The notes under the pieces: generated by a model
Databases searched by the model: none
What the model saw: only the letters and a program-made list of their open reading frames with translations
Told to the model about the DNA's origin: nothing
In this document: positions 5,068 to 54,766 of the stretch, in pieces
How the letters are laid out: each line of letters begins with the position of its first letter
Position numbering within the stretch: position 1 is the stretch's first letter
Origin: Tribonema minus
Taxonomy: Eukaryota > Sar > Xanthophyceae > Tribonematales > Tribonemataceae
Assembly: GCA_017506865.1 (NCBI GenBank)
Contig: JAFCMP010000235.1
Location: forward strand, 1 to 64,000
Reading direction: 5' to 3'
DNA length: 64,000 nt
Position numbers and translations under genes: made by a program

Positions 5068-8000
5068 ATGGGGAACCAGTCCGCCACATCGCTGTGCAGT
5101 GACGACAGCCGCAGCATGGGGCTGAGCAGGAAGCGGCCCGCTCATGTGGCCTGGGAGGACACCCTGGGGCGCTGGGTCTGTCTGCAGACCTCGGGGCAGG
5201 GACCGTCGCCTCGCAGCGGGCACGATGTGGTCGTTATTGGTCGCAAAGCGTATTTATTTGGAGGCTGCGGAGGCGAGAGCAACGACCAGATAGCGTGCCT
5301 AAACGACGTGTACACCTTCGACCTGGACACGCATCAGTGGAACGCCGTCGCCGTCAATGGGGAGCCGCCTCTCCCGCGTGCGAGCTTCGGCATGTGCGCT
5401 CGCCCAAGCCCCCACAGGTAAGAGCCGTACAATACGTGAAAGCAAAGCAGGTGTTTTGCATCGCACTGTGACGCACACAAAGGGCAGATGTTAGCTTGCG
5501 GCTCTCGTCAGCACGCCAGTTCAGCTCGTGCTTGCGAGGCGCAGGTCGACAGGGTTGCAGCAGTTTCGAAACTGAAACATGTGCAACGCGAATGAAACTG
5601 CTCCGGACACGATCCGCTACGCGCTCTCCGCGTGTGGCGGCTACCGTAACAGCAGCACTTGATGTTTGCTGGTTTGCACAACACCGCATTCCGTTGATTG
5701 CAGCACACACATCTGCAAATTCATACACACTAGAACCGTACGCTACGCGGCACTTTCAACATATGCCGATAAACAGCGACGACGCAGCTTGACAGCGCGA
5801 GTGTGGCTAGCGCTGAGCAATTTTTGTAGCCCAAGCAAGCAGACACATGGCACAGCAGTCAAGCTTGCCTGGGGCTTTCCTGTGCATGAAGGTGCGCTGA
5901 GTCAGTACTTCAATTGGCTTCAACGCCGGATTGGGCGCTGCCCAGTGACAAGCAGACCCAGAGGTAAATAGCGCACATGTGCAGCAGCGCTCGCGCCGCC
6001 GGCTTCCGCGCAGCGCAGCCGCCCTAAGCCAAGACGCGAAACCTCAATTTAGATTTCAGTCTACCCATAAACAGAGTGCTGCTGTTGCGTCACCACAGGC
6101 AGCACCCGCCTGCAGGCAGCGCAGTAGCAGGTGCAGCAGCGCGCACAGACCTTGCCGTTGGCTGCAACGCTCGGTTGCTCAGTTAGCTCAAGTGCTCACG
6201 CACCCCGCATGGGGCAGCGGCGGCGCGCGCTGTCGCCTGCGAGGCAGCTGGGTGACAGCAGTGCTCAGGGCAAACACACGGCGCGCCGCGAGGGATGCGC
6301 GCACTGCAAGAGCACCACGAATGGCTTTCGTCAAACTTATTGTTGGTAGTTTGCGTCGTAAATCGAACGCCGTACGTAGCGCAGCCTTGGCGCAGCACGT
6401 GGAGTGCGCTTCTTGCCTTTGCCGCCGCCGCGCGCTGCTCCCGCCGCCGCCGCCAATGCCCGCCCGCGGCGCCCGTGTGCCCACGATGCAATTTTAGTTG
6501 TTGTGTTTTGTGCATGTGCCGCACTTCACCTTGCTCTATACCGTACGCGCCGCATCACAACGTGTGCGCTTGCAGGTCCATCGTCGACGCCGGCGGCACA
6601 GGCATGGAGATGGACAGCCTGCGCGCTGCTGCAGCCATTAGCCACGAGTCAAACAGTGCCACCATTACATATTTTTGTGATCCGTGCATTGGCCGCCGCA
6701 CTTCATCCTGGTCTACGTGTCGCGTGCCGCACTTCACCTTGCTCTACCGCACGCATCGCGCCGTGCGCTCACTCGCAGGTCCATCGTGGTCGCCGGCGGC
6801 ACGGGCGTGGAGATGGACAGCCTGCGCGCGGACATCGTAGAGTTCGACACGCGCACGCGCGCGTGGCGCAGGGTCGTGACGGACTCCGAGGAGACGCCGT
6901 GCAGGTTCTACGGGCAGAGCCTGTGCACGTACGGTGAGTCAAATCGTGTCGTAGTCTCGGGCATACGTGTACGCACGTGCGTACCTGCCACGACAGAAAT
7001 CATCAATGTTCGCATATTTTTAGGAATCTGGCCAGACGCTGTGCAAGTTCTACGGGCAGAGCCTGTGCACGTACGGTGAGCGCGCGCGCGTGAGTGAGAC
7101 GAGTCAAGTCGAGTCATAGTCTTGGGCTTGTGCGCATGGGCGTGCGTCGGCAGATCTGCCGGGGCAGCAAGGATCAGAACTCACCTCTTTTGAGAGGAGG
7201 CGTCATGCAGGTGCTATCGCCAGACGGCAAGTTGAGCGCTGCAACTCAAATCGTCGCCTCCACTTCAACCTGCACAATTTCAAGCTTCAGGTGCTGACCC
7301 CCCCCCCCTTCCCCCCCCCCTGCCGGGCAGGCGAGTCGCTGCTGGCTCCACGGGCATGCACTACACGAACGACCTGTACGAGTACAACCCTAGCCGTAGC
7401 TCTATCCCAGGCAAAGCTCAAGTGCTAACCTACTGAAACGAACCCCCCCCCCCCCCCCCCCTCCCCCTCCCCCCCCCGCCCCGCAGGCGAGTCGCTGCTG
7501 CTCTTCGGCGGCTCCACGGGCATGCACTACACGAACGACCTGTACGAGTACAACACGACAACGCAGCGCTGGCGCAAGCTCACCACCACGGGCCGCAAGC
7601 CGACGCCGCGCTACAAGCACCAGGTGTGTCACCGCGCGCCGCGCCTGCACTTCAAGTTGAAATGCTTTGGAATACCATGCCGCCCGAGTGTGACGGCAGC
7701 TTGTGTGGCAATGCTGCATGTGCCAGGTGGGCTCAGAGGTGGTTTGTTCATTTCTGTGGATCCGGCAATGCCGGACGTGCCAGTTAGGGCAACGAGGTAG
7801 TCTTGGCCCCCGTGTTGATGTGTTGATGATTCCCTGACGAGAATGTCGGACGTGTCATGTAGGAGAAACAGTGTTCTCCCCTAATGGTGTTCTCCCCTGT
7901 TGATGTATCACACCCTCCGAACCCCTCGCCCTTTTTTTTTTTTAGCCCCTGCAGTCACGAGGCACAATTGTGTACGTAGGGCCGACAGTCGAAACGATGG

Positions 8001-9602
8001 TTTGCTGCACTGAGCTGATAGCAGAAGGTCAGCAGTTCTCCCTCCGGTCCATCCAATGGATCACAGCTCTGACCCTGACTCTTTGCAGGCTGTCGTCGTG
8101 GGTGCGTCTATGCACCTATTATAGGTAAGGGTTGCAGTTCCCATTTCTGACGCTGGTCTATCCCATGCGTTGCGCCTCTCACCCTGACTGTAACTCTGAA
8201 TCTGACCCCCTGCAGGCTGTCATCGTCGGCGCCTCCATGTACGTGATCGGCGGCGGCTGCTTCAAGCCCGAGCAGTCGACGATAGACGTGCACCGCCTAG
8301 ACCTCGCGACGCTCGCGTGGGACGAGGTCGCCACTTCCGGTGAGACATCAACAATTGCCCTTTGTACATTCTCACAGATATGTATGTGTACTCAAATGTG
8401 CGCTTTCATCTTTGAAGTGTATACATTGTGTATGGTCAGGTACAGATGTGTGCATCGTCAGGTACAGTCAACGTGCCGTCGTACGGCAGTTGCGCAGCGC
8501 GATTGGCGGCAGACGTGCGCGTTGGGTTAGGGTTAGGGTTAGGGTTAGGGTTAGTGCGTGCCCATCGTGCGCAGTGAGCTCCGCGATGTCGGCAGGGCAG
8601 AACCCGTGCGCTTTGCGCCACTCGCGAGTACCTGACAGCTTTCACGGTGTTGAGGGCTTGCTGAACTGGGCAGGGCTCTGCTGAGCAGGCCTGCCAATAT
8701 ACCTACCTACCGTTGTTGTCGGTCACCGCAAACTGAATCGGACAAGATTTCTGACGAGCAGGCCTGCCTGCTGCGGAAACTGTGAGTCAAGGCGCAAGAC
8801 ACCATCGACTAGCTTGGTCATGACCATGTCCGGACTGCCCATATTTACCTCTCTGATATTTGGTCAACGCAAACGCGCCGCCCTCACATCCCCCCCCTCC
8901 CCGCCGACTTCAACTTCAACCTCCGCAGGCGACGTCCCCAAGTCGCGCGTCGCGCACTCGTGCTGCTACGACGCCGGCACCGGCACCATCTTCCTGTGGG
9001 GCGGCTTCACGAGTGAGCTCAGCCGCCTCCAGGACTTCTATACGCTGCACTGCGAGACCGCCACGTGGCGCGCCGTGACGCCGGGCAAGGCGCCGCCGCC
9101 GCTGCCGCCGACGCACGCGCCCGCCGCCGAGGGCGCGGCGATGGGCGGCGCCGCCGTCGCCGCCGGCCCGCCCGCCGGCCCCGCGGCGGCGGCGGAAGCG
9201 CCGCCGCCAGCCGCCGAGGCCCCGGAGGCAGCGGCGCTGGCGCCGGCGGTGGTGTCGGGGGTGGTGCCCGCGGCCGCGGCGGCGGCGGCGGCGGCGGCGC
9301 TGCCGCCGGCGCGCGCCTTCCACGCGGCGTGCTTCTTCGAGGACGCGCTGTACGTGTTCAGCGGCGCAAACGGCGACGTGCGCTACAGCGACGTGTGGCG
9401 CTACCAGGCGTGCGCGTCGCCGCCGAGCCTCGGCGTCCTTGCGGCGCGGCTCGTGCGCGCGGCGGCGGCGGCGGAGGGCGGCGGCGACGCAGACGCGGCC
9501 GCGGCGGCGGCGGCGGCAGCGCGCCACAAGCGCCACCTGCCGAGCGAGGTCGCCGACGCCGTGCTCCACTTCAACCAGCACGCGATGGGGCTTGCCACGT
9601 GA
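5068..9602 (+). CDS. Kelch-repeat beta-propeller protein (five exons)
   Basis: Exons: 5068-5417, 6779-6933, 7487-7623, 8216-8339 and 8929-9602 (TGA 9600-9602). All four junctions keep phase (2, 1, 0, 1), giving 479 residues. Successive kelch blades show the G-G doublet followed by Tyr and Trp, for example KAYLFGGCGG with LDTHQW, SIVVAGGTG with RTRAWR, LLLFGGSTG with TTTQRW, MYVIGGGC with LATLAW, and IFLWGGF with ETATWR. A long Ala/Pro-rich insert splits the last blades. The C-terminus has a GANGDVRYSDVW motif and a LPSEVADAVLHF helix. Kelch propellers are protein-binding scaffolds; the partner is unknown. The start could be ATG 5068 or ATG 5116, which has the better context. All four introns carry partial copies of neighbouring exons. 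Confidence 0.9.
6515..6666 (+). repeat. Exon echo: copy of kelch exon 2 start with its acceptor
   Basis: Sequence from about 6517 to 6630 repeats the end of intron 1 and the first 50 or so nt of exon 2 (real exon at 6779). The copy keeps the GCAG acceptor (6572-6575) and the ATGGAGATGGACAGCCTGCG block. It then runs into a copy of a dispersed repeat (6625-6666) that contains GCCACGAGTCAAACAGTGCC. Confidence 0.85.
7038..7078 (+). repeat. Exon echo: copy of kelch exon 2 end with its donor
   Basis: The last 35-40 nt of exon 2 and its GTGAG donor recur about 145 nt downstream of the real donor at 6934. The shared core is TTCTACGGGCAGAGCCTGTG followed by CACGTACGGTGAG. The copy lies in intron 2. 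Confidence 0.9.
7328..7388 (+). repeat. Exon echo: copy of kelch exon 3 start with its acceptor
   Basis: A GCAG acceptor (7327-7330) is followed by a copy of the first 58 nt or so of exon 3 (real start 7487), with about 10 nt deleted after GAGTCGCTGCTG. Both the copy and the real exon are preceded by a run of C residues. Confidence 0.9.
8089..8116 (+). repeat. Exon echo: short copy of kelch exon 4 start
   Basis: TTTGCAGGCTGTCGTCGTGG with GTGCGTCTATG matches the acceptor and first codons of exon 4, whose real start is 8216. The flanking CTCTGACCCTGA sequence is duplicated as well. Confidence 0.75.
8526..8556 (+). repeat. Internal telomeric repeat, five TTAGGG units
   Basis: Perfect GGGTTA repeats lie within kelch intron 4. 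They are far from any chromosome end visible in the window. Confidence 0.95.
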
Positions 9603-12244: not shown

Positions 12245-15200
12245 TCAGATGTCCGCGTCGCCGCCGGAGGGGGGGGGGTGCGCGTGCAGCGGGTTGCGCA
12301 TGTGCTCCTCCATGACGGCATAGACGACCTGCGGCGCGCGCGCGGCAGCAGCAGCGGCGGCGGCGGTCAGGGCGGAGATGAGAATGCGGCTGCTGTCGGC
12401 GCTGCCGCTGCTGCTGCTACTGGGGCTTGGCGGCAGCTACGCCCCAGGGAGCACTAGGCTCGGCTGAGGCGTGAGGCCACCGCTGTATTGTGCTCATGTC
12501 CACATCGGGCACGCAAACACACTTGTGATGTCGACGCACTCCTCCCTACGGCCACAACGACCTGTGCGTCTCTGCACAGGAAGCGCATTGAGGGCAGTGT
12601 GGGGCCAGCGGGGGTGACGCATTCTACATAGAGGTGGTTGTGAATGCTCTGTGCTGTTCTTACCGCAGTACGCGCCCTTGAGCCACCTGCTGCAGAGCCT
12701 GAGGGTTAGGGTTAGGGTTAGGGTTAGGGTTAGCCAGCCCCTGCCACCCCCGGCCACCTCATCTCTATGGGCTGCACCGCAGGGCGTCGCTTAGAAACCA
12801 TACTTCAACTCATCACTTCAACACCAGCCCGGCGGCTCAGTAGCGCATGCGCATCGGCTGCCCCTGCCGCAGGCAGCAGGCAGGACTGCACCACCTACAC
12901 CACTGGAGCGCTCAAAGCAGAGCCGATGGTCGGTACACAGAGTTGCAGACAAAGACTTTGACAAACGCCTGCGAGGTGTCTCGGCAGCGCACACATACGC
13001 ACAACCTGAGTCCACACAACAAATTTGACAAATGCGTGCAACGCGCGCGTACGCCGCCTGCGCCGTCGCTCGGCAGCGCACTACACATACGCACGTCCTG
13101 AATCCACGCGTTGAGCTGCCCCGCCACCGATAAAGCCTTTGACAGATGCCTCAAAGCAGAACCAATGGTCGGACGACGCCTTCGACGCAATGCCTGCAAC
13201 GCGCACGTATGCCGCCTGCATCGTCGCCCGGCAGCGTGCACATACGGGGAATCGGCCTTAAAGAGTGTGAAGCTTTTGCGAAGAGTCTGGGGGAGGCAGC
13301 AGCATGTGCAGCAATCCTTGCATTGCACCGACCAGTAAGGATGGGCACACGGCTGCAGCAGAGGACTATCTGGTAGGCTAGCATAGAAAGCAGTCAGACA
13401 AGACGGCGCGCTCATACGCACGTCCTGAATCCACGCATTGAGCTGCCCCGCCACCGGCAGCAGCCAGCGCTCCATGAGCGTCGCCATGGGCGCAAAGTGC
13501 GCCGGCGGCAGCAGCGCCGCCGCCAGAAGCGCGTTGGACAGCGGCCGGCCCTCGCGCATGCTCTCTGCCAGCGCCTTTGCGGGAGGGGCAGCCCCCCCGC
13601 TCTTCTTAAAGAGCCTGGTGGAGAGGGGGAGGGGGGGGCGTTTTTGGGGTGGGCGGTGGCTCTGTGAGTGTTTGCGCACGCTCGAGATCAGGGTTGTTAA
13701 TGACGTAATGACGCCAAACTACGTCACAGTAAGAAGTGCCGCAAGTACCTAAGTATTTCAGAGTGACGGACGTAATTACGCGTAAGTAACTACCTCGATG
13801 TGCCGTGATTAACAACCCTGCTCGAGAGATCCCAGCGGGATAGCGTGCACAAGCTCAATGGAAGCATACTTGCTGCATTTATTGTGGCGCAGAACAGCCC
13901 AAGGGTGTCCGCCGCTCAAGCGGAAGTAAATAAAGTACTTCTCAATTGTCGTCTTTTTACATCAGATGCTGCTGCTCCAATGTCAAATTGTAATTATCTA
14001 AAGGCCTGGGCATTCCCGAAGCTTATTCTTTTTAATAAAAATGAACAAAGAGAGATGATGGTTTTTGTAATCCTAGTATATTTAATATTTATTAGACATT
14101 TGTAAATGGGTTTGATAAAGTTTGGCAATGTATAAGCTTGCTTCTATAGTTGAGGCAAAGACAGCAAATTTTGCAAAAAATCCGCCTATGCTTAGCTCTA
14201 CATCTTCAATAGTACAATTTTTCATGAATATTAAATTATCGTTATTAAGCTCCCAAGACTTAAATTCTCCGTTTAACAAATATAAGCTCAAACCTAATTG
14301 GAAAAAAGCTTCAGCATAAGGATTTGCTATTTTTAGAGCTGACATTTTATTGGTCATAAGCGACCTCCTAATCGATTTATTTTGCTATCAATAATTAAAG
14401 ACTGATCAGAGGTACTCTTCTATTCGTTGTGGTGAGGGGCGAAGTGCGCAGCGCGGCAGCAGCGATAGCGCAGCAGCCCGGCAGCGCACGCGACAGTGAC
14501 CTGCGCCTGCGCCTGCCTGCACGCGCGCGCCCTCGACGAAGCGTTGCTGCAGGATTGTCGGCGTTGCCGTCGTTGGACAGAACGAGGTGTGCACAGGTGG
14601 GGCACAGGAGAGCGACACAGTCTGCGCCGAGACTGCTGCTACACCCCCCGGGTGTTCGGGTGGAAGCTTGACATCAAATCATCTCGCCCCAAGCGAGAAT
14701 TGACAAAAGGTACACATCGCGTACAAAGTCAATCACATAGCTCAGTGGTGGCAGTTGCAGCAGCGCTCGTCTCCTGCCAACGCGCTTGCGGAATTGCAGT
14801 GGCAAATCTGCGCAACGAGCAGTATGTACGTATGCGCACCTGCTGGCGCGATGCGACGGGCCCTGCTTTGAGGGGGTGGGGTCAGGTGACTACAGAGGGG
14901 GGGGGAGGTCTTTTCTTGGGAGATGGCTGGGTTTCCCCTGGGGGTGGCAACACTGTCAGCGGCTGCGATCCCTTCCCCCCACACCAGCGCACCGACGATA
15001 CATCATCGCTATGTTGTATACATGCACCTTGTGTGCCACTCTGCTGCCTTGCCCTCAGCATAGAAAACGAGAGGAAGGTACGCATGCGCACCTGCTAGCG
15101 CGACGTGCCAGCGCGGGCGCGCCGCTGTGCACCGGCTCCGCAGGCGGCGCGCTGCGCAGCGCACACACGCGAGCGAGCAGAAGACAGAGAGCAATTTCAG

Positions 15201-18200
15201 CGTCAGCCATACAGCCGCAAGCGCCAAGATGAAAGTGGCGACATGCAGGCGGAGAGGCTGTGGGCCCGGTCGGCCACAGTAGGCACATGACGATAGATGG
15301 GCTCCGCAGGTGGCGCGCTGCGCAGCGCGCGCGCACGCGAGCGAGCGGAAGACAAAGAGCAATGCCGGCATCAGTCATACAGCTACAACGAGTGCCAAGA
15401 CCAGAACGGCAATGTGCAGGCGGGGAGGCCGTGCATGTGACAATTGTGCCGTGACGCGCGCTGCTGCGGGCACGTGAGCGTTGCGAGGAGAGCAGTGATG
15501 CTGGCTTGCCAAGTTACCACAACTGGGTAAAAGGACCGTGAGTTACAGATGTCGCGGATGCGCGGTGGGCGCACTGCGGGAAAGTGCTGTAGAACCTTGT
15601 GACTGCTGTAGAACCTCCTGACCAGAGAACAAGGCGATGGCGGCAGACTTGCTGCGATCAACTGCGCCAGCCCGACGTGCACCAACGACCGACTGAAACG
15701 ATGAACAGCTGAGCATCATCAAGGCCGTCATTGTACATGACACGCCGTCATGAGTTTGTTGGTAGGCGGGCCTGGTGTCCAGCAGCAGCTGCTGGCAGCA
15801 CTGCTGGCAGCGTATGAATTCCAGCCGCCGTCTGCCGTCTGACTCAGTGCTCGCCTGGCCCAGTGGACTGCCGGCGACCGCCACACAGCCTCAAATTGTG
15901 AATTGAATCTTACCGCGCTACACAATCATACGACGCGGCGGTCACCTTGCCGGAGAGCTGTCGCCTTGCGCGTCCGCCGCCGCTGCCGCTGCCAGGCGCG
16001 CCGCCAGGTCAACAGCGGCCTGGTTCGCGGCCGCCTGCTCCTGAGTGCTGCTGCCGCTGCCGCCGCTGCCACTGCTGCCGCTGCTGCTACCGCTCTCGCC
16101 CGCCGCCGCAAGCTCTGGGCGCAGCGGGCGCAGCAGCATGTACACGCACGACGCGAGAACCTGGGAGTGCGGTGGCGGCGGCAGCAGCGCACAGTTCAGG
16201 GCGCTGTCAGTTTTCCTGGCGAGCGCATGCGGGGTTAGGGCAAGGGTTACGACGAGAGTTAGGGTTAGAGGTAGCGCGTGGCGCGCGTGAGCTTTGCCGT
16301 GCATGTTGCTGCCACGTGCTCGCGTCTTCTGCTGCTGTGCCAGCTCCGGGCACAGTGACCGCGCGCAGCAGCGTGTGCGCGCACAACGCGAGCACCCGCG
16401 TACACAGGGGCACGGCGACAGTATAATTTGAAGGTCATGTAGACTTCAAGTGCCCGGGCGCGATTCGCGAAGTGCGTGCGCGTGAATTTAATACTGAGCA
16501 CTGCTGCCAGGTTCCGTAGACTTCAAAGCCCGCCAAAGCGCACCTTCGCGCTCGTTGTAAGGCGCGGCGCACAGCTTTTGAGCGTGGAACACGCGGCAGG
16601 TTCAGGCTGCTGCCGCGTCGTGACGACGCAACACGCACGGACAAGCGGGCCTTCGCGATGCGCACTTCAAGTTGGATGCTTCAAGAGCGTAAACGCGCGA
16701 TCGGCAGCCGGAAGGGGGCGGAAGGGGATACGTGCTGTCAGGGCTAGGGCCAAAGCAGTTGACAGTGCTGCTTGAGGCGCATGCGTATGCACTGCCATCC
16801 GGGGTCTCAGTTCAACGCACCTGACAGTTACAGGTTGCAGTTGCCGCCGCGACCCCAGCCAACCGCTTCAGGCCCGACTCCCAGGGGTACAGCACTGCCC
16901 ACGGCAGAAGTTGACGCACCAGGAGGAAGTTTGTCACCTGCGCCAAGGGGACACCATTGGGAAGTATTGTTACAAATGTTCATGGCTTCAGGGTACATGC
17001 GTCGAATCATGCACGTTGCTGCATATTCAATGTTGATGTCATCAAAGTGAGACGGTTTTATAAACCTTCAGCTGCATTACCCTAACTTAACTCTAGGCGG
17101 TAACAAAGCCGCGCTTGCCAGCACCTGAACCTCAGACTGAGAGCCACGCCAGACTGATGAAGTCTGCTGCAAGCGCAGCATTATTATTGATTGCGCAGCA
17201 TAAAAATTGATTGCGTTCCGTCGTTCAATATCAGAAAACCTCACATTGCTTCGATGACAACAATTGCGCATGCTCACGAACCCCCAACCGTCTCCACACC
17301 CAACCACCCTCCGTCAGTCATGCAGGCTCACAAGCAGTGTCAGCGCTCTGCACTGCGGAAACGTGTGACGCTTCACTGCGTCAACGCTCAAACGTGTGAC
17401 GCTCCACTGCGTCCACTGCGTCAGCGCTGAAACATGTAACGTTCCACTGCGCCAGCGCTCAAGCGTGTGACGCTCCACTGCGTCAGCGCTCAAACGTGTG
17501 ACTCTCCACTGCGTCAGCGCTCAAACGTGTGACGCTCCACTGCATCAGCACTCAAGAGTGTGACGCTCCACTGCGTCAGCGCTCAAACGAGTGACTCTCC
17601 ACTGCGTCAGCGCTCAAACGTGTGACGCTCCACTGCATCAGCACTCAAACGTGTGACATTCCACCGCAGCAGCGCTCAAACTTGTGACGCTCCACCGCGT
17701 CAGCGCTCAAACGTGTGACGCTCCACTGCATCAACGTGTGAAGCTCCACTGCGTCAGCGCTCACACGTGTGACACTCCACTGCAGCAGTGCTCACCAGCA
17801 TCTCCACGGTGGACACGTCGTAGGCGACGCCGGTGGCCCCGTGCACGTACGTACACGCCTTCTTGCTGCGCCGCACGATCTCCAGGGTCTGCGCAGGCGC
17901 GCACAGCGAAGCGTAGGCAGTTGAAGTTGGCACATAGTGTGTGCATCAAGTACTCATCTAAAGCGTGAGATTTGGCGCATTGTGTGCATGTTTCAGTAGC
18001 TCGTTTACAGCGTGAAACCAATGAGAAGCGATGCCTTCTTGCTGCGCCGCACAATCTCCAGGGTCTGCACAATGACGCATCGCGGATCGTAGACAGTTGA
18101 AGTTGGCGCACTGTGTGCATGTTTCAGAGGTCGGCTAGGGCGTGCACCCGCTGAGGAGCGCTGCGCGGGCGCGCATCGCAGAGCGTAGGCAGTTGAAGTT

Positions 18201-21200
18201 GGCGCATTGTGTGTGCATCAACAAAACGGTCATGATCCATTGCTCCATTGCGGTCACAAATGCGTATGAGCACACGCTTGATGATGTGAATGCAAGAGCT
18301 GCATATCATGCACTTCTCTTAGGGTTTCCGCTCCTCAGGCGGAAGTAAATAGAGCACTTGTTCACAGCGTGCACCCAGTGAGCGTTGGCGAATTGTGTGC
18401 ATGTTTCAGAAGCTGGTTTACGACGTGTACACATGAGAGGTGATGCCCTGTCACCTGTGCCGCGAGGCCTCTGCAAGTTCAACATTGAAGTAGACGCTCC
18501 TGGCTAACAAAACGTCATCAGCTGATTAATTTGACTCCGGCTATCACGCCCATTCAGGTGCGGTAGCATAAGCCTCACGTGGCTTGCAAAGGTGGGAACG
18601 CGGCATGCAAAGGTAGGAAGTGGCACAGAGCGGTGGAGTCGACATGATTAGTATGAGGGTTGAGTTTACGCTCAGGCTTAGGGTTCGCGCTACGGTCAGG
18701 GTTAAGGCCAGGGTTAGGGTTGGCAAAGCCTTGTACCAAAAGCTTGCGCACATTTCGCCAGACGTTACGCGCAGCAGCCCAAATGTACACGCTCAGCGAG
18801 AAAAACGTACTTTGAAGTATTCAACAAAGATTTACATTCGGTATATATGACGAGAGGTGCGCATGGCCTGCACGACAGCTCAGGAACGTGGCATCGACAG
18901 CAAGTTGTTACTGTTCTGCTTGTTGTCACTACTTCAAGTCAGTGCTGGCAATTACCGGCGGCAGCGACGTCTTGCGCATGCCGCGCTTCACGGTAGTGCG
19001 CCCCCCTCCCGGCGGCGGCGGCCGCGGCGTCGTTGCGCCGTATGCAGCGCTGCCGCCGCCGTTGCCATTGTCGCCGCTGCCTGCGGGGCGCACGATCCAA
19101 CGCGTAGCCCCCAAGGGCGAGAACGACATGCGCGCGCACTCCCCCTGCGGCGGCGGAGACACACGAGTAGGGCTAGGTTAAGGCAGAAGAGTGGATGAAA
19201 CTGTAAGTATGTAGCTCATGTGCACGGGCGGGCGGCGCGGCATGCAGTAGTGAATGGCAGGTCTCCTGGACTGAGCGGAGGTCACTGCACGTGCAGGCAG
19301 TAGGTCCACGGACTGCTTTGTCCCGCAGCATGCAATGTCAACGGGGCGCCTAATCGTGGCCCCTGCCCTCACGCTAGCCCTAATCCTAGCCCTACCCCTA
19401 ATTCAAGAGGGCGCGAGGTGGCCAAGGGTTCAGGCACGCGGGGTGACGAGATACCGCAGGCCAAGACCAGAACCATGTGACCATGACGGTAGCAGTGCAA
19501 TTCTCTTGGAGCGGCTGTGGCGCACGTCCCCCAAGTCCCTGTCGCACGCTCGTGGCGGCTGTAGCCCTAGTTTTGGATCTGACCGTAGTTCAACTCTGGC
19601 CCTAACCCTAAGCGTCAATTGCATGTAGCGCGACCTGGCGCGGGACTGCGGGTGGACCTCAGCAGGCTCGTGTTGCTGGAGCCACAGCTGCCGCTGCAAT
19701 GCCCGCGGGTGCTCTGAGCGTAACCCTCACCCTGATCCTGGCGTCAATCCTGGTGTTGACAATCACCAAGTGATGCAGTCAAAGCGCCAGCCACGGCCGC
19801 ACCGCCTGTGGCAACCGCCTCACCCTGACTGAGGCATTGCTACACGCATTGCAGGGTGAAGCGTGACCCCTGAGCGGCGGGCGGGCGGGCGCACAGGCAG
19901 CGGTGCTCAGGCAGAGGGTTTGGTTCAGGGTAAGAGCTGCGGTGGAGACAAGGGGGGCGTGCAACGCTGGGCGTTGGTCATGGATCGTCATGCACTGGGT
20001 GGGGTGCGACTTAACTCCCACTTTCGCCCTCAACCCCGCATTCTGGAAGCAGTGCCGCGTTCAGATCTGGCCCTAACCCTAGGTGGGGGGTTGCATGCGC
20101 GGAGAAGGCGGCGGAGCAGTGAGATTGCCAGACGGCGAAGGCTGCGCGCAGTCCGTCCACGACATCCCTAAACCTGACCTCAACCCCGACTTCACCCCCA
20201 CCCCGATGACATTACCGCGCTCGAGCGCTGCATCTTCTGCTACCACCTGTGTCGTCACAGAGTCGAAGAAAAGTTGCATACAGCATTCCGTAGAGAAAGA
20301 CCATTACCGACTACATCAACCTTTGCCTCACCGTAACTCTGACTTGTCATGCACGGCTCTCTGTTTGAGAGCATGCTCACCGGGAATAAAAAGCCTTCCG
20401 GGTAGTAGTTGCCGTCCGCGATGAGGAAGGCCAGGAACTTGATGATGTCGTGCGGCGGCGGCTCGCGCGTGACGCCGTCGATGATGCCCTTGACGTGCAC
20501 CTGCAGCAGCGATCAGCATGGGGCAAAGGAGTGTCAACTTCAACACCAGAAGGGGCTGCACCGCGCCCTGGCGCCACCGCAGCACCTGCGGCAGCGCTCA
20601 GCACCAGAGCAGAAACACCACAGCTCTGATAACGCACACCCTTGACTGCCCTTGGTGGTGTTAAGGAAACACCGACGGGCGCGCGGGCGCTGCCCGTGTC
20701 AGTGGCCACACGGCCTCTCAGAGCACGGCGCAAAGAGCATGTGCACGCGTGGCACTCGTTAATGGAGCTGTTGATCGCGGTACGTGGTGCCGACGTGATG
20801 CCTGGCACTCTTTTGTGGAGCTATTGACGGAGGTACCGGCATGGTGCCGATGATGCCCGGTGCCGGCGTGTGACAGCTGCACCGCAAAAACTTAACCCAG
20901 GATTGGCCTAACTTTAACCCTAACCCTAACCCTAACACTGAGCATGCCACCGGCAAAGCAGGAGCTGCAGCAGATGGCAACGCGGCAAAAAACCCGCAAC
21001 TCCTAACCCTAACCCAGGTCGAGGACTGGAGCAACTGATGGCCAAGTAAGGGCTACCTAGTCCGCACAAGCATCTGGCCATTTCACTCCCTGTACCGCTG
21101 CTGCAGACTGCCCCGCATCTGCTCACGGTAGCAGCTACTGCTGCACTCCCGCCAAGTGTCTTCACCTTCAACCGGGGGGGCAGCTGATACCGCTAATCTA

Positions 21201-24038: not shown

Positions 24039-24313
24039 CGCGACAGCGCGTTACACGTGCAGCCGGCACGTGAGGTGTGTTGGTAATTGCGCTTGCTCTG
24101 TGGCTGCTTGGGGATTATCCCCAAGGTGTCGGCTGATAAGTGTTCGTGTCTGTTAACAGTGACAGCTACCACGGTTACTCAACCGCCACAACAATGCCGA
24201 GTTGTTGTTGGTGAACGCACACATGTGTTTTCGGATAGCTCGGACACATCTTGGCTCTGAGCTCCTGCTGCTGTCAAGTTGATGAACTACTGTGGAGGTG
24301 CTGCATTCCGCAG

Positions 24314-24480
24314 GCACCCGTGATAAGCGCCGAGCGGACGACGAGCGATAAGAGAATGCGCCTCTGCACGCTTTGCAGCACGCGCAACGTGCCGCTCGCT
24401 GTCAGCGGCGCTCTCCGAGACGACCTGTGCGCCTCCTATTATCAGACTTATGGCTTCCGCTCTCGAGCGTCATTGCCGCG
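24314..24480 (+). CDS. Candidate plus-strand exon with a Cys pair
   Basis: After a CAG acceptor (24311-24313), an open frame reads APVISAERTTSDKRMRLCTL and continues with CSTRNVPLAVSGALRDDL. The CTLC pair could be half of a zinc site. The frame stays open past 24480, where coding character fades. It may belong with the candidate exon at 22540-22810. Function unknown. Confidence 0.3.
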
Positions 24481-25360: not shown

Positions 25361-25363
25361 GCG

Positions 25364-29949: not shown

Positions 29950-31152
29950 ATGTCATAAGTATGCCACTACACACACACACACATGTCCCATCTTCAACAT
30001 TGGCAGTTGGCGGCAGTTACAAAAGTTGATGTTGATGTTGTTGATTGGTCAAGCTGCACCAATCAAGCTGCAAGCCGCAGTGACCAACTTCAAAGCAGAA
30101 AGGAGTGTGTATGCACACGCCACCCCCCTGTCAGGTCTCACAACGGTCAATCAATGCCGACATGTGGGCCATGTACCACTATAGGGCAACTGGTGGCTGC
30201 CAAAACCGAGTCACCCAGGGTCCCCCTCCGCCGCCAACTTGAAGCCCTAGTTCCAGCAACGCAGATATGAGACCACAATGCAAAGCGGGATGTAGAGGCT
30301 CCCTGTGAGTGGGGTGTCACAGGCTTGAAGTTTTGAGTACTGCCTGCAGGTGCCGTTGCAGCGGAAACCCAGGCGCGTGAATTGTGTCTTCAGCGGGCAA
30401 AGCAGTCACCCACAGCAGAAGCCAGTGCACCATGGAGAAGCAGCCTCACTAGGTGCCCATCTCATTTGTGTGCCCAGATGTCGTCGATGCACTGCACCTT
30501 GGTTCCTGGGCGCATGACTAGGGAGGCTTCTCTGCCAAACTGGCACACGCGTAAGCCAATTTGTTCTATACTTCTACACAACTGAAATCGATGTATGCAA
30601 TGACATCCGCTGTATCCATCTGCTGCAGTACGATTGAGTCCATACTTAGGGTTAGGGTTAGGCTAACCCTAACCCTAACCCTAACCCTAACCATACACAA
30701 TAACCTCATGAAGCATTCTGATGGTCCGTGGTGCTTAGCACATGCCCGCGCAGCCCCCGAGCGTTGTGAATGTCATCAGCAAAACTTCAAGACAGCAGGC
30801 GCCGGAGCAGCAAGCCACCAGCAACACAAGGGAGCACCCAGAAACATTGAAGAAGAGTCGTCATCGCGCAAACCGCCCCTGTACATTACAGAAGAGCCTT
30901 TTTGCGCGCCAGCGCCGCCCATGCGCCGGGCGTCACAGCAACACAGCCCTCAGCAGCGCTCAGTAGCGCACCATACTCCTTCCCACTTCAACATGCAATA
31001 CATAGTACACTCAATAGATAACCCGAAACAGCGCTGAAGGGGGTGTTCCTGTTCGCGACTGCGCGCGTCCGCCACTTGGGGGGGTGCTCTCACATACCCC
31101 CTTACCCCCCCCCCTGCCTCTTGCCTCAATAATGATGTCTCGTTGCCTCTGG
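29950..31152. other. Region between the Gln-rich gene and PACRG; inverted telomere tract
   Basis: A plus-strand open stretch at about 30790-31037 looks mildly protein-like but has low third-position GC, so I did not call it. The region holds (CA)n at about 29967-29982 and an inverted telomeric array (30645-30698). Confidence 0.45.
30645..30698. repeat. Head-to-head internal telomeric repeats (site A)
   Basis: TTAGGGTTAGGGTTAGG runs directly into CTAACCCTAACCCTAACC. The junction TTAGGGTTAGGCTAACCCTA is palindromic and could form a hairpin. The same junction occurs at 33661-33705. Confidence 0.95.
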
Positions 31153-43744: not shown

Positions 43745-46700
43745 ATGAGGGCGGTGATTGCGTCCGTTGCGGTGGCAGCCTGTTTGAGTTGTTCTGAAGC
43801 CTTCGCGCCTCATGCAGGATCATGCACCACTAGCAGGAGGGCGCAGCTGACGGTGGCAGCGGGCGCGGCACCATCGCGCTCGGTGGGAGTCAGTGCTGCT
43901 AGGCGGGGAGCCAGGCGCGCGGGCGCTACTATCAGCATGGGGGCTGGCGCCGCGACGGCGGATGCAGCCTATGCCCCTCCCGATGCAATTACCCCAGAGC
44001 ACCCGCTCCGAGTTATACTGGCGGGCGGCGGTGTGGGAGGGCTGCTGGCGGCGAAGTACCTCAAGCAGAGCGGCTTCGACGTGACAGTTTTCGAGAAGAC
44101 CGATTCCTTTAAGCGATTCGGAGGTCCCATCCAGCTGGCCTCCAACGCCCTAAGTACCATCAAGGCAATCGACCCAAAGCTCTTTGAGTCGCTGATGAAG
44201 AAGTTCACCTTCACCGGGGTGCGCACCAACGGCATCATGGATGGGTGCGTGCTGCATCTGCATGCCCCCAGTATGTTGATCAAACATGGAACAGAAACAC
44301 CAGCAGCACTCTCCAGGTGTCTGATGCTCTGCAGTGCCGCGCTGTGCACCAAAGCAGATAGGCAACGAGGTCAGGGCCATGCTGTAGCTGCCGCTGCTGA
44401 AGCGCGGCGGCGCTTGCGTTGCATTGTCAGAACCTGTTGAAGATCCACTCTTTAGTTCTGATACATGCATCTGATGTTAGTTCTAGTGCTCATCTGATGT
44501 TAGTTCTACAGCGCATGACATGAGAGGCGAGCAGTGCTCTGATGTCATGGGGCGCACCATCAATGCAGCTGCTGCAGCCCGCGCAGGCAGCGATTGCATG
44601 TTGACTTGAATGCTGTTGGTGGTACTGCGGACATGGCGTGATTGCATCAACCAATTTCCTCTGCAGAAAACTAGAGCGCGCAAGTTCACGTACGTTCTCC
44701 TAGCGTCATCACATTCTTCAATTGTCTTCCTGTCACCGCTGCTGCCGCTGCCGCCTTTGCACACCACGCTCGACGTGATCACCGTGGCAGCAGACATGTG
44801 TGCGGAAGGCTGTGCGTCCCATGCCCAAAAGTCAACTCAGTCATTCACATCACTCTTTTGCACCATCGCATTCTGTGACCGCTGTCGTGTCACTGCCACT
44901 GCTGCCGCCGCCGCTGCTGCCGCCGCCTCTGCTGCCGCCGCAGCCTGCGTACGGAGTGGTGCACGAAGCTCAACGCAATCACCGCGGCAGTGGTTGTGCG
45001 CGCCTAATGCCGCAGATCCCTCACCCTACCGCCAAACCGAATCATCCTCATCAAATCGCTTGCGCAATCACATTTCGTAACCGACTTCTTTGCACCGCTG
45101 CCGCCGCCGCAGCCTGCGCACGGAGTGGTACACCAAGTTCGACGCGATCACCGCGGCGGCGGACATGCGCGGGCTGCCGTATACGGGCGTGGTGGACAGG
45201 CCAGACCTGCAGGCGATCCTGCTGGAGGACCTGGGGGAGAACGTGGTGCACAACGCCAACACCGTCTGCGGCTACAGGAACACGGACAAGTGAGTGCCGT
45301 ACGCTGAACCGCAATGCAGTACAGTGAATACTGTAAACTGCAATGCAGTACAGTGAACTGCAATGTGGTACAGTGCACTGTAGTGCAGTACAGTGAACTG
45401 CAATCCAGTACAGGAAACCGCAAAATCTAGGGAAGAACGTGGTGCACAACGCCAACACCGTCTGCGGCTACAGGAACACGGACAAGGAGAGCGTACGCGT
45501 AGTACGGTGAACCGTAATGCGGTACAGCAAACTGCGATGTAGTGCGCTGAACTGCGAGGCGGATGCGGAACTGCAATGTAGTACAGTGAACTGCAATGCG
45601 GTGTATTGAACTGCAGTGCAGCACAGTGAACTGGAATGCAGTGCAGTGAATGGTAATGCAGTGCGGGCGCGCAACGCGTACACGGCCAGGATGTGCTTGG
45701 GTGCCAGGATGTACGTAGGTGCCAGGGTATCCTTGTGTGCCCGGATGTACTTGCATACGCAACGCGGATGTCACAAAACATGGTGGTGGCGTGCTTGAGT
45801 GACCGAAGTGGTGCACAATCCAAACACCTGGTATAAGAACCCTTCTCACAAGGTTGTGGACGTGTGTGAGTAAGCTCCTGGACTCTTTGACGTCTACGGC
45901 CATAGCTGTTGGCGTACGTGTACCACTAGCTGCAGAATGCTGATTTACATATAGCACCAGGCATGCGCGTCCACTGTGGCTGTTCACAAGCACAGTCCCG
46001 TGCATGCAGGGTTAGTGCAACCTTAGAGGATAGGGTCAGGTTCAAATAGGTTGACCCTGTAGACTTGTCTTCCCCTGGTGGGGCGCTTTCGCGCTCGAAC
46101 CACACTTAAGTTGACCGCACAGTGACCAGTAGGTGGGGCATTCAACCGTAACCCTCGCCGCGATAAGATGCCTCAGCGGCAGCAATGCCTGGCGCCGGTG
46201 CGCGTGGTGCGGACGCCATCGCTAGCTCTGCTTCGCTGTCGCTGTGGACGCGATGCCCGACGCGCATGTGCGCGCTGCTGCTGTCGTGCGCAGCGTTGCA
46301 GAGGTGCACGTGCGCTTCAATCAGGTTTAGGGCTAGGGTTAGGTTAGGGTTGCAGGTACAGTCAGGGTTAGGACCCCAGTCCAGTTGCCGCACGGTCGCC
46401 AACAACGTCACTCCAATTCTGACGCAAACTCTGTTCAACTGCCTCTATGACCGTGCTATTGGCGGCGCCGGCGCGCGGCTGCTTCAGCGGCGTGGAGGTA
46501 TTGCTGGAGGGCGGCAAGACGATGCACGGCGACGTGCTCATTGGCGCCGACGGCATCTGGTCGCAGGTACGGCTGGTGTTGATGTACTGTACACTGTACT
46601 GCTGTACTGTATTGAACTATAAATGCACTACATGCTGCTGGAGGGCGGCAAGACCATGCACGGCGATGTGCTGCTTGGCGCCGACGGCATCTGGTCGCAG

Positions 46701-49700
46701 GTATAATCAGGTGGTTGGTGTACTGTACTGTACTGTGCTGTTAATATCATACATCCAAAAGACTGATTGGCGCCGAGCATCTGGTCGCAGGTGCCGCTGG
46801 GTCATCAGTGTACTGTACTCTACTGTACTGTACTGTACTGTGAATGGGGTACCAGGATTGTTTCTGCAAGCCCTCGGGTGAAGCTGGCAGCGCGCCCAGC
46901 CCTACCTTACCTCGCTACAGGCAGCCAGCAGGGGGCAGGCACAGCTGTTGTAGAGGCGACAGCTGGCAGGCAGATCTGAAGTGGTGTACTGTGCTGCTGT
47001 TTTGTACTGTACAGAATTACATTTCAGAGGACAGAGTTGGGAGCGGGTGACCACCACGTTGATGTGGTGAAACGGTGTACCGTATGCTGACCATGCGCTC
47101 GACGTGCAAGTCAAGTAAATCAGACATGACGATGCAGTGATCAGCATTTGGCAGTCCTGTCGAAGGTTGCTGTGCCAGTGTGGACACACTGCGTGAGGTA
47201 TTGGCAGCAGGTGGTGGTATAGACGATGGTGCTATTTGGGCGCAGAATGTACAGTAGCTGTGCTGGAAAAGAGGGCCCTCCGGGCCAGAGGCTGTGTACT
47301 GCAATTGTTGAACAGTGTGTAGGGCTAGCGTTAGGGTTAGGGGTGGGTAGCCTGTCCAGACTGTTTCATCGCAGCGCCCTCTGACATTTTGGCTAACGTC
47401 CTGCGCGCGGAACGCACGCTGCAACACACACGCTACGTGCAACCGGCGTGCGCTCTTGTACTGCACGTGTTACACCTCAGCGCAATCCGTCTAGTGCCGG
47501 TGCCGTTGCTGTACAGCAGACGGCAGTGAGCGCGCCCCTGGCGGCATCGCACAGTGCTCAGCCATGGCACGTGAACATGTGTCTTTGCTGCGGGCCGCCG
47601 CGTGCAAAGCAGCTGCCGGGTCACACGGCTCTGTAGACGTGCACAGTGCTCGACCATGGCACGTGAACATGTGTCTTTGCCGCGGGGCGCTGCGTGCAAA
47701 CCAGCTGCCGGGTCACACGGCTCTGTGGACGTGCACAGTGCTCAGTCACGGCACGCGAAAATGTGTGTTGGTTGCGGAGCGCATTGGGCGAATCAGATGC
47801 CGGGTCACACGGCTCCATGGACGCACATGCTTGGCAACACGCTGAATCTAACTCTTAACCATAAGTCTTGGAGGCGAGCGCAGAGCGCCTGGTCGTACCT
47901 CAATACTGTGTACGCAACCGAGCGCTTTCGCTACCCCTACCCCTTTTGTTAACTTAGAGCTGTGTTGATACTGGGTGTTGCTGCATACATCCTTGATCCT
48001 ATTAATCGCTTGTGGTATTGAGCACTGCTGCTGTTGAGCTTTGTCGATACTGGCGCGCTGCTCCAGGTGCGCGCCGAGATGTTCATTGTTGATGTTGAGC
48101 TTTGTCGAAGCTCAGCAATGATGATGTTGACGTTTCGTGATGTTGAGCTTTGCTGATACTGGCGCGTTGGTGCAGGTGCGCGCCCAGATGTGCATTGTTG
48201 ATGTTGAGCTTTGTTGACGGAAACGAATCAAATGATCGTGGAGCTCTAGGTGACAAAGGATGGTCAGCCGCAAGTGTTGATGTTGAGCTTGTCGTCAACA
48301 CTGGTGTGTTGCTGCAGGTGCGTGCCCAGCTGTGCGCTGTTGATGCGTTGCTGATGTTGTTGATCACCGTTAATGTTGAGCTTTGCTGATGCTGGACTTT
48401 ACTGAGGTTGACCTTTGCTGATATTGGCGCGTTGCTGCAGGTGCGCGCCCAGATGTTCGTTGTTGATGTTAAGCTTTGTTGAAGTTCAGCATTGTTGATG
48501 TTGACCTTTGCTGATGTTGCGCTGGCGCATTGCAGGTGCGGGCCCAGATGTGGGACGAGCCCGTCAAGAACGGCAAGAACTCGGGCGCCACGTACTCGGG
48601 CTACACTGTCTTCGCCGGCGAGACCATCTACGAGCCGCGCGACTACTGGGACGTGAGTGTTGAGCGCTGCCATTCATAGTGCCGCACTGCTCGAATTTGA
48701 AGTGCTGATGGCACCCTCTTCCAGCCCAAATCATAAGTAAGAAAAGCAGTGTTTCACACGGAGTTTGCACCCTCTTCTAGCCCAAACCACGAGAAGCAAT
48801 GTTTCACACGGTGTTTGCCGGCGAGACCATCACGAGTCGCGCGACTGCCGGGACGCGAGCGTTGAGCGCTGCCATCCATGATGCAGTATCATTAATGCTG
48901 ATGGCACTGTAATTGACCACCAGGACGTGAGTGTAGAGCGCTGCCACCTGTGTTGCGGCGTCTTGAATGCTGATGGCATCCTCAACAACCCCAAATTAGA
49001 AGTTGATCGAACATAGGAGTATTCTTTCTGGTTGTTTGCTGGTGAGGCCACATGCTGAGCACTGTCCCCCTCTCGCGCCGCGCGCCACAAGGTGTACCAC
49101 ATAGCCTCTAACGAAGGCCCTGGGCTGTATATTGTGACACGCTGCGCTATGCAGTTCAAACGTGCTGCCGCCGCGCACTACATGCTGAGCACTGTCCCCC
49201 TCATGCGCACTACGCGCCGCAGGTCGGCTACAAGGTGTACATCGGCCCCGGGCAGTACTTTGTGACGAGCGACATTGGACAGGGGCGCATGCAGTGGTAC
49301 GCTTTCCTGGCGCTGCCTGCTGGCACCAAGGCGCGCGACGACAACATCCTATACCTCAAGGTGAGTAAATTGAAGTTGCTCCAAAGCTGAGCGCTGCTGC
49401 TTGCATTGCCATCGCTGTCGGGCAACACAAAGGTGCATGACGATGACAACATGGTACATATAAGGTTAAGGCGGTACCTTGTGACGAGCGACATTGGACA
49501 GGGGCGCATGCAGTGGTACGCCTTCCTGGCGCTGCCCGCGGGCACCAAGGCGCGCGACGACAACATCCTGTACCTCAAGGTGAGCAAGTTGAAGTTGGTG
49601 GCAGCGTTCGTTTTTGCCGTCGGGCGAGGCAAGCTGGTATTCGTGGGCAAGCAAGCGCGCTGTGACGACGAGTCATACATCGAGATGAGAGGCTGACGCG

Positions 49701-52700
49701 GTGCTCAACACATCCGCTCATGCCCAACGCAATGGTTTGTGTGTCACTGCGCGGAGGCTGCGCTCAATCATCGCATGCACAAGATGTGGCGCGGAGCAAT
49801 GGGGGAGCAGGAAGCTAACCCTAACCTTGACCCCTGAGCCTTAGCGCTGCTGCTTGCGTCGCCGCCGTCAGTCTGGCCTGCATCTGCGTGATGTACTCAG
49901 GCACCTCAAGCCCCCACACCCCATGAATTGCACCTGTGGTGACCTGGAGTTCTTGCATGGACCCGGCGCCGTGGTTCGGCCATCGAGGTGAGCACTGCAA
50001 AGCACTGCTGTAGGGCCATGAAGCTCAGCGCTGCTGCGCGTGTCTTGCCCGCATCTGCGTGGCGCTTTCGGGCACGCCCCCTAAAATGCATCTGTGGTGG
50101 CACCGAGACCTTATTTGGCCATTGAACTGAGCACTGTTGTAAGGCTATGGAGCTGAGCGCTGCTGCTCGTGTCGCCGCGCCGCCCATTTTATTGCGCGCA
50201 GGATCGATTCAAGGGCTGGAGCGAGGACATTTCCGAGGCGCTGGACGCAACCTCCAACAACGACGTGGAGCAGGTATGTAGGCATCGCTTGCCAGGTTAA
50301 GTTTCAGGTCAGGGTAAGGGTTAGGGGACGAGCACAGCACAACGAGATTCGCATGCCGGGTTTGCTCATACATAGGTATCGCTTGCTCAGGGTTAGGATT
50401 AGGCATCGCTTGCCAGGTTAAGTTTCAGGTTAGGGTTAGGGTTAGGGGACGAGCACAGCACAACGGGATGCGCATGCCGGGTTTGCTCATACATAGGTAT
50501 CGCTTGCTCAGGGTTAGGATTAGGGTTAGGGCAACGCGCGCCACGACGCAGCTGGCACAGCATGCTGCTCCAAACACTTCGTCATAAGGGATGGCAATCA
50601 CACAGGCATGGCAGAATGTGGGTTGGGGCTAGGACTAGGGTTAGGGCTAGGGTTAGGGTCGGGGTTAGAGGACGAGCACAGCGTGATGGGACGTGGGCGC
50701 CGCTTGCTTGCGGGGAGGGCACGAAAGCACAACAGGATGCACACTGCGGGTTTGCGCACAATCCTACATGCATCTCTTTGAGGGTGTGAGGGGGGTTAGG
50801 TAGTTCGCGATGGGGATTGGTCGTGCTGGCGGTAAGTACTTCAAACAGTGAATGTGCAATTTCCGCTGGTTACCCCCGCGCCCCTCCGGCCCAAGACATC
50901 TCCAGAGGTGCTTGCTTCATCCTTCCTCCACCGGAGAAAGCTTTGCGCGACGCTTGTTTCTCACGGCGAATGCCCCCCATCTCGCCCCCCCCCCCCCCTA
51001 CCTGGCCAGCGCGACCTGTACGACCGCAGGCCGAGCGTCATGCGCAGCTGGTGATACGGCCATTGATGTTCAGAGAAAAAAAGCTGTGCATGACACGTGT
51101 TCCTCTGGCACTCACCACCCTTCCCCCCCCCCCCCCCCCCTTTCAGCGCGACCTGTATGACCGCAGGCCCAGCGTCATGCGCAGCTGGTGTATGTCTAGT
51201 GATGGGCACACAGAGAGCTTTGCATGCCCCTTGTTTTGCATGGTGTTCACCCCCCTCGCCCCCCCCCCCCTCTTCCCCATTCCAGCGCGATCTGTACGAC
51301 CGCAGGCCCAGCGTCATGCGCAGCTGGTCGGACGGCCACGTGATGCTCATGGGCAGACAGAATGAGTACCTTTGCACAACACTTAATTCGCACGGTGTTC
51401 ACCCCCCTCTCCCCCCCCCCCCCCCCTCCCCCCTTCCAGCGTGACCTGTACGACCGCAGGCCCAGCGTCATGCGCAGCTGGTCGGACGGCCACGTGACGC
51501 TCATGGGCGACGCGTGCCACCCCATGATGCCCAACCTCGGGCAGGGCGGCTGCCAGGCGATGGAGGACGGCTACGTGCTCACCAACATGCTCAAGGAGGT
51601 GACGCGCCGCAGCGAGGTGAGCAGCGCTCAGCGTGTGTACGGTACGTATGTATGTGCATACATGCCATAGAGGAACGGCTATGTACTCACCAACATGCTC
51701 AGGGGGAGGTGACGCGCCGCAGCGAGATGAGCAGCGCTCACCGCGGGCGCGCAGTGCATGTATGTATGCACATTCCTTGCCAGGCGCCGGAGCAATGGCT
51801 ACGCTCTCACCGACATGGCGTTGGAAGGAGCAAAAAAAATGAAATGAATCTGGTTTAACGGCCCTGGACATGCATTAATTAATCCCTGGCAGGTGACGCT
51901 CCGCAGCGCGGTGAGCGCTGCCCCCAGCAGGCGCGCGGTATGTATGCAACACACATCTGTCACACGTGGGACAGTCTTTTACGAAATACGCGGGCACAAC
52001 TCACGCTGCATTTCTTTGCGCGGTCGTCGTCTCCGATGGAATCCCCGGGTACAGAGCTCGTGCTACATTACTTTGAATCACGTCCTTGTTCTGAATCCCT
52101 TGCTTCCCCCCCGCCCTCCCCCCTCCTCCCTCCCGTGCGCGCTTTCGCAGATCCCCTCCACCCTGCAGAAGTACTACCGCACGCGCATTGCGCGCACGGC
52201 GATCGTGCAGGGCCTGTCGCGCATCGCTTCGGACCTCATCATCAACCAGGTTAGCATGACTTGCAACAATTGTGATGATTGTATATAGAGCTGGATTCAG
52301 TATGTCTGTAGAGCAGGATTGGGGGCGCGGACCTGCCTAGCAGAGTTGAAGTTGGTAGCCCGCGCTGGGAGCGCAGCTGCCGCTCGCAATGGAGCTGTTA
52401 TGTAAAGCAATGTGTTTGCACGTCGGATCTGATCATCGGTCAGGTGAGCCGCGACAGCAGAGCAGAACGCGCAACACAAGAGCATATATATGCTATCTTA
52501 TACAAAGCTCAACTCGCATCGATTTGTAGTGGTCATGGGGGGGGCGCGGAAGCGCTCAGCAAGGCAAAAATGCGCGGCCCGCTGCACTTGTTGAGTGAGA
52601 CACGCTTCTGCGCTGACCACAGACAACCTGCTTCAAGTTGAACTTGCTCACATAGGAAGTACACACACTGGAAGATACTCTCTCGACACCCCCTGTGTTC

Positions 52701-54766: not shown

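Follow-up and report, generated by a model that had tools for sequence, protein, structure and literature searches.

Many introns of Tribonema minus carry partial, diverged copies of the edges of their own neighbouring exons. Copies of the acceptor-side edge lie upstream of the exon and copies of the donor-side edge lie downstream of it, an arrangement referred to here as the side rule, and the copies themselves are termed exon echoes. An earlier note had described such copies in the introns of a single stretch of DNA; the present analysis, which verified 21 copies in that stretch and detected 88 in 30 loci outside it, confirms that exon echoes in this genome are real and are not confined to the place where they were noticed. 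The best explanation, to which we assign a probability of about 0.7, is that the echoes are the older copies from repeated head-to-tail duplications of about 100–200 bp that straddle a splice junction. The findings suggest that introns lengthen through small duplications that recur across their own splice junctions.

Exon echoes in the window

Contig JAFCMP010000235.1, whose first 64 kb form the window, belongs to an assembly of 158 Mb in 554 contigs. The window is eukaryotic in its genes, of which Pfam matches and reading frames located three: kelch, PACRG (on the minus strand), and a ZEP-like gene. The last of these is presumably a zeaxanthin epoxidase, ZEP being the name used in the earlier note; the relatives of its product in a PDB search are FAD-dependent monooxygenases. 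The PACRG gene has a match to Pfam PF10274. Comparison of the window with itself gave 81 repeat pairs, 76 direct and 5 inverted, where all five inverted pairs are telomere-type and the direct pairs are mostly spaced by 70–450 bp. The 21 verified exon-edge copies belong to kelch, ZEP, PACRG, and a minus-strand gene near 26.8 kb, with sense scores of 37–190 against best antisense scores of 17–24. The echoes, their source exons, and two duplications lying wholly within introns are the following (window positions).

6577–6626, plus strand: acceptor-side echo upstream of kelch exon 2 (core 6780–6875); covers nt 1–50 of the 96-nt core at 92% identity (sense score 80, antisense 22)
7330–7388, plus strand: acceptor-side echo upstream of kelch exon 3 (core 7486–7608); covers nt 1–69 of the 123-nt core at 86% identity (sense score 94, antisense 18)
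26258–26740, minus strand: array of donor-side echoes that follow a minus-strand exon with its donor GT beginning at 26794; copies at 26702–26740, 26593–26651, 26495–26552, and 26258–26291
26795–27494, minus strand: open frame (27494–26736) with the exon edge that is the source of the 26.3–26.7 kb array
32627–32944, minus strand: three donor-side echoes of PACRG exon B at 32913–32944, 32770–32801, and 32627–32656; 88–93% identity, scores 43–50 against antisense 19
33009–33086, minus strand: PACRG exon B core, source edge, followed by gtgagc; exon B taken from translation, PF10274 matched in the gene
44761–45002, plus strand: two acceptor-side echoes of ZEP exon 2 at 44761–44798 and 44957–45002, which match the first 46 nt of the core at 84% and 78% identity
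45126–45290, plus strand: ZEP exon 2 core, echoed both upstream and downstream
45427–45486, plus strand: copy of the final 60 nt of the ZEP exon 2 core on the donor side (97% identity; sense score 110, antisense 22)
46489–46572, plus strand: ZEP exon 3 core, source edge
46636–46792, plus strand: two donor-side echoes of ZEP exon 3 at 46636–46703 and 46763–46792; 94% and 91% identity
47549–47823, plus strand: intron-only tandem array of 3 × 92 bp in ZEP intron 3, without an exon edge
48806–48855, plus strand: donor-side echo of ZEP exon 4 (core 48545–48655); 86% identity
49223–49360, plus strand: ZEP exon 5 core, source edge
49470–49579, plus strand: donor-side echo from ZEP exon 5 (95% identity; sense score 190, antisense 17)
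50279–50524, plus strand: intron-only tandem duplication of 2 × 121 bp, beginning 5 nt past the ZEP exon 6 donor; 97% identity
51010–51354, plus strand: three acceptor-side echoes of ZEP exon 7 at 51010–51062, 51147–51189, and 51286–51354; 91–96% identity to the first 43–69 nt of the core
51440–51616, plus strand: ZEP exon 7 core, likewise echoed upstream and downstream
51661–51817, plus strand: two donor-side echoes of ZEP exon 7 at 51661–51726 and 51778–51817; 86% and 80% identity

The four copies in the array at 26258–26740 are 83–88% identical to the exon edge (best antisense score 20), and the window repeat search additionally lists 26311–26364 in the same family; the open frame that supplies the edge continues beyond the donor into the intron up to a stop. 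The PACRG exon B echoes are spaced by 143 bp within a 145-bp tandem array at 32618–33002. In ZEP, all 12 copies lie on the predicted side. Its exon 5 echo includes 110 of the 138 nt of the exon, more than any other of the 27 nearest echoes placed at exact junctions, and the exon 7 echo at 51778–51817 stops 27 nt before the end of the core. No copy was found in the window for the cores of kelch exons 1 and 4, PACRG exons A, C, and D, or ZEP exons 1, 6, and 8, and two matches downstream of kelch exon 5 were discarded as low complexity (antisense score 47). The earlier note had counted roughly 40 copies in at least five genes. Kelch, ZEP, and PACRG were recovered and the minus-strand exon at 26.8 kb may belong to its Gln-rich gene, while the figure of 40 was not reproduced beyond the 21 copies verified. 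The three copies on the minus strand at 17857–18221, which read like an acceptor followed by open sequence, are possibly another acceptor-side array.

Echoes across the genome

The genome was searched with profiles of the tubulin, kinesin, dynein, and antenna-protein families. One of its antenna proteins is matched best by LHC polyprotein chains (9vfj) and, among chains of a single domain, by those labelled ACPI and CAC, which are labels of cryptophyte antennae and give a hint of affinity at most. The echo sample consists of 30 loci outside the window (24 kinesin and 6 dynein, hence two gene families) with 109 conserved exon pieces, and the eight tubulin and antenna loci (L009–L016) were left out of the echo counts. 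The search extended over 1.5 kb around the exons, and low-complexity matches were dropped uncounted. The flanking DNA yielded 88 sense copies of exon sequence, whereas no antisense copy was found in the flanks of the 109 exons of the 30 loci. At least one copy was present at 41 of the 109 exons and in 20 of the 30 loci, so far as the two families sampled go, which extends the pattern well past the few genes of the window. The 44 upstream copies touch the 5′ end of the exon only in 42 cases, both ends in one, and neither in one; the 44 downstream copies touch the 3′ end in 40 cases and neither end in four. The side rule, which the earlier note had asserted for both strands, is thereby obeyed by 83 of the 88 copies (44/44 in 15 plus-strand loci and 39/44 in 15 minus-strand loci). 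The echoes are not whole-exon duplications, for a single one of the 88 reaches within 30 nt of both ends of the exon core. Two segments called as dynein exons by the family search, L037 2635–2745 and L038 3878–3964 (gene orientation), overlap with the exon before them in both profile range and sequence and resemble echoes; these cores, probably echoes themselves, were kept in the counts.

Exact splice junctions were obtained by joint modelling of donor, acceptor, and frame, and introns were kept if the splice model passed. A first round retained 26 of 37 modelled introns; the later set holds 42 introns of at least 250 nt, seven of them from ZEP, including ZEP intron 1, which was added by hand below the score cut. 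One exact L038 intron depends on a core that is probably an echo. ZEP, a gene chosen by the finding itself, contributes to the analyses of 84 edges, array age, flank homology, and exon part, and to part of the analysis of exact introns and splice dinucleotides. In the first 26 introns, an echo is present at 16 of 52 edges, with 2/52 on the wrong exon side and 0/52 in the antisense control; in the 42-intron set, ZEP included, the count is 28 of 84 edges against 0/84 antisense. For the first 26 introns, probes from the exon interior have copies in the flanks in 12 of 190 cases.

Repeats of other kinds were also observed. Telomere-type TTAGGG repeats occur inside genes, at 8524–8554, 12703–12733, 30646–30692, and 33646–33705 of the window and in introns of sampled loci. 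In 251 kb of sampled loci, there are 258 TTAGGG/CCCTAA hexamers (both strands) against about 115 expected, or approximately 2.2-fold; 32 kb of introns contain 53 of them and 25 kb of exon cores contain 4. These interstitial repeats were weighed as a sign of break repair and set aside, for introns with and without echoes differ little (1.79 vs 1.41 per kb). A 31-bp minisatellite of 14 copies lies at window 17359–17794. A repeat of about 440 bp forms two tandem copies, 84% alike, at window 55554–56463, is also seen in L001–L008, and has at least 48 genome matches (40 of 1379 candidates scored), most with 95–99% identity over at least 440 bp; from its sequence, it would be a young dispersed or satellite-like repeat.

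Anatomy of the copies

The copy nearest to the exon contains 21–69 nt of exon at 26 of 27 exact edges and usually includes the splice site. Copies of one edge often stop at the same exon limit (45, 45, and 45; 47 and 47; 21, 22, and 22 nt). The distance from the real edge to the nearest copy is 97–203 nt at 44 of 58 edges, with a median of about 150. Sampled introns are about 300–2000 nt long and hold partial units beside other DNA; an intron of L029 has the order exon, donor copies, acceptor copies, exon. The intron flanks of neighbouring copies, or of a copy and the real edge, are homologous in 63 of 99 comparisons, the threshold being the 95th percentile of 378 cross-gene controls, while 36 of 99 show no homology beyond control and eight antisense flank comparisons exceed it. 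A simulated tandem process gives 0.67–0.85 on the same measure. Averaged over 21 echoes, identity is 0.90 in the exon and 0.77 in the first 10 nt of the intron, and is near control beyond. Among 27 young pairs (at least 88% identity), none abut within 20 nt by strict alignment and 12 continue on the intron side; one L038 pair outside these 27 has a gap of 9 nt.

The direct orientation of the copies (88 sense, 0 antisense) and the inclusion of adjoining intron in the unit (63/99 flanks) are the features of small tandem duplication, and local duplication or slippage fits this anatomy, the earlier note having suggested local slippage or template switching. Spaced copy-paste ("filler") insertion was set aside after the sensitive comparison showed homologous intron flanks, and an assembly error is unlikely, given the average difference of 10% between an echo and its exon (21 echoes). 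Many similar segments spread over the introns of many genes might also bring to mind an introner-like or other mobile element. This is scarcely credible here: each array copies its own exon, no exon copies are inverted, and echo flanks from different genes are unrelated, the 378 cross-gene control pairs having a mean score of 9.0 (99th percentile 14.0) against 20.7 within an array, so that sharing among genes was not found. The direct orientation and the array-specific flanks agree with the earlier view that no mobile element is involved.

A likely preference for exon edges

The side rule by itself is no evidence that edges are special, because a head-to-tail duplication across a junction, together with selection on the exon, yields it: only the copy beside the exon body can act as the working edge. 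A process that regenerates splice-site sequence, as the earlier note had envisaged, is accordingly not needed for the side rule, although the excess of copies at edges and the star-like relation of the copies described below leave it some room.

Whether edges are copied more often than other DNA has to be judged from interior probes. In the first count, made without masking, local copies were present for 120 of 409 interior probes, about as often as for edges (16 of 52), and this early equality arose largely because echoes matched one another. When echo copies were masked, the interior probes with a copy came down to 81/595. In the masked 42-intron set, which includes ZEP, 155 of 1028 interior probes stand against 28 of 84 edges, a ratio of 2.2, and in the 19 introns without an edge echo, 4.7% of 429 interior probes have a local copy. 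Exact introns without ZEP give 20/70 edges against 98/809 interior probes, a ratio of 2.35 with a wide interval (0.95–7.77). Over all 30 loci, the ratio is 2.15 (55/214 edges against 741/6205 other probes; 95% interval 1.58–2.91 by locus bootstrap), in a comparison where edges are placed more roughly and unannotated exons count as other DNA.

These counts bear on the reading in which local tandem duplication is position-blind only, the frozen exon keeping exon–echo pairs recognisable about twice as long as intron–intron pairs while duplications internal to exons are lost. We consider it doubtful as a full account. The arrays at 47549–47823 and 50279–50524 have no exon edge, so duplications lacking an edge also happen, and the local direct copies at non-edge probes, the initial parity of interior and edge, and the covariation of edge and other-DNA rates across the 30 loci (rho 0.63, p 0.0002) all accord with a position-blind process. 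Set against this are the drop on masking and a purpose-written simulation of position-blind duplication with a frozen exon, run over a range of unit sizes and indel rates and with hot and cold introns in different mixtures: its edge-to-interior ratio was 0.46–0.92, compared with 2.2 observed and a lower bound of 1.58 over 30 loci. Generic intron duplication as the full explanation was therefore rejected, the masked counts and simulations falling short of the data. A simulated edge preference of four-fold gave a ratio of 1.64 and one of eight-fold gave 2.58.

Duplications thus straddle edges, as the simulation supports, at no less than about twice the position-blind rate, and a tie to gene structure beyond the side rule, as the earlier note had held, is likely, judged from this purpose-written simulation. 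A stronger proposal is that splice junctions are hotspots of local duplication in this lineage, introns growing at either end as a segment of roughly nucleosome size, centred near the splice site, is copied again and again, which would leave a decaying record of earlier exon sequence; we advance it tentatively, at less than even odds.

Loci differ strongly from one another, as ten of the 30 have no echo, and loci with long exons are poor in echoes (rho −0.62). L021, L023, L025, L033, L036, L041, and L043, several of which have long exons, are almost without local direct duplication, which gives the appearance of a split between hot and cold genes.

Proposed mechanism and the genealogy of copies

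Under the preferred reading, a segment of about 100–200 bp across a splice junction would be duplicated head-to-tail. One copy would remain joined to the exon body and be maintained by selection, and the other would come to lie in the intron, where it is presumably spliced out and could decay freely. Repetition would drive the older copies inward, leaving donor-side copies after the exon and acceptor-side copies before it. The molecular step may be fill-in of staggered breaks or of paired nicks, or replication slippage.

The genealogy of the copies fits this explanation less well. Strict accretion at the edge would make the nearest copy almost always the most alike, and the nearest copy is most alike in 14 of 26 arrays (9.6 by chance), which counts against the explanation; simulations that also duplicate echoes gave 28/46 and 29/46. 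Derived states shared among copies at codon positions 1 and 2 number 14 of at most 141 (0.10), against 0.25–0.54 in simulation, and the exon part, at most 69 nt at 26 of 27 edges, is shorter than the simulated medians of 70 and 78. Star-like copies with a short exon part could be explained by exchange between exon and copy or by repeated copying from the edge.

Two further readings take up these features. In the first, the exon would serve as a selected master copy from which gene conversion or unequal exchange refreshes old tandem arrays. The loose relation of identity to distance, the star-like copies, and exon parts that are more alike than flanks in several arrays (for example, L029 8365–8425, at 98%) would agree with it, but a simple one-way simulation of conversion gave an edge ratio of just 1.39–1.46 with copies no more star-like, and the divergence by codon position is explicable without refreshing, so that we consider it unlikely. 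In the second, copying is linked to splicing: a segment of the exon edge, taken from pre-mRNA or from DNA that lies exposed at the splice site, would return as a copy to the same intron. The exon as hub of a star-like set, the short exon part that is similar among copies of one edge, the sense-only orientation, and the fall in identity just inside the intron are all in its favour. It is nonetheless quite improbable, given that intron flank was copied as well in 63/99 comparisons, that the copies are not cut at the junction, and that their narrow spacing suggests head-to-tail units.

Decay of the copies

Copy and exon mismatch at 7.0% of first, 7.0% of second, and 15.6% of third codon positions (78 copies of 94 exon pieces in 26 loci), and 6 of 430 mismatches create a stop. 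This pattern would be expected from a freely changing copy set beside an exon that varies mainly at silent sites. Splice dinucleotides are kept in 28 of 36 copies, a figure that could suggest that echoes are retained for a function, such as decoy or backup splice sites. Control exon dinucleotides are retained equally often, however (111/144), stops and amino-acid changes build up in the copies, and the 10 of 30 loci without any echo do without them, all of which makes retention for function very improbable. The copies decay neutrally: to judge from sequence, they are not maintained for coding, nor are they removed as decoys.

Relation to known systems

The type of event is known. In a potato RdRp gene (PMC4974935), a single tandem duplication across an intron–exon boundary made a new intron; by comparison, the present case involves many genes, several copies per intron, and both sides of the exon. 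Intron gain by tandem duplication (Rogers/Hellsten) is alike in that a small tandem duplication is rendered harmless by splicing, but there a new intron arises from duplicated exon sequence, whereas here partial units lie beside other intron DNA. Repair-mediated proximal duplications in vertebrates are likewise local and of similar size, with a median of 147 bp, 278 of 824 donors intronic, and splice sites sometimes copied (PMC2671141). In that study, copies less than 50 bp from the template were excluded as tandem, partial exon/intron donors number 4 of 824, and opposite orientation occurs, as for an ACSBG2 exon; the exon copies described here are direct only, biased to edges, and homologous in their flanks in 63/99 comparisons. 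Fill-in at staggered breaks makes small tandem duplications at induced breaks in mammalian cells (PMC8355091, which introduces them as short insertions of <100 bp and cites Vaughn and Bennetzen 2014 on rice). These are head-to-tail and offer a plausible molecular route, while the passages covered of that paper, unlike the present data, draw no link to exon edges. Introners, described for Amoebophrya (PMC7789003) and in a survey (PMC9860276), are families of repeats that have spread from gene to gene, in some cases with short repeats at the target site; they resemble echoes in being repeats at introns of many protist genes and differ in that each echo derives from its own exon. Genome-wide recurrent duplication of exon edges was not found in the literature among the matches listed, in a search with subscription papers mostly outside it; PMC2592719, consulted on exon duplication, contributed nothing further. 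As far as the searches reach, the frequency, the recurrence, and the edge preference in one genome are new.

Significance

Exon echoes carry a warning for annotation, since they may be mistaken for exons. How introns lengthen, and how the spliceosome disregards near-copies 100–200 nt from real splice sites, are open questions, and a genome in which about one-quarter of the sampled exon edges (55/214) carry copies with mostly intact splice dinucleotides (28/36) provides a natural test of exon definition. The echoes are also a record of small tandem duplication of a kind that is normally lost: old duplications stay recognisable here because the exon end of the duplicated unit remains under selection.
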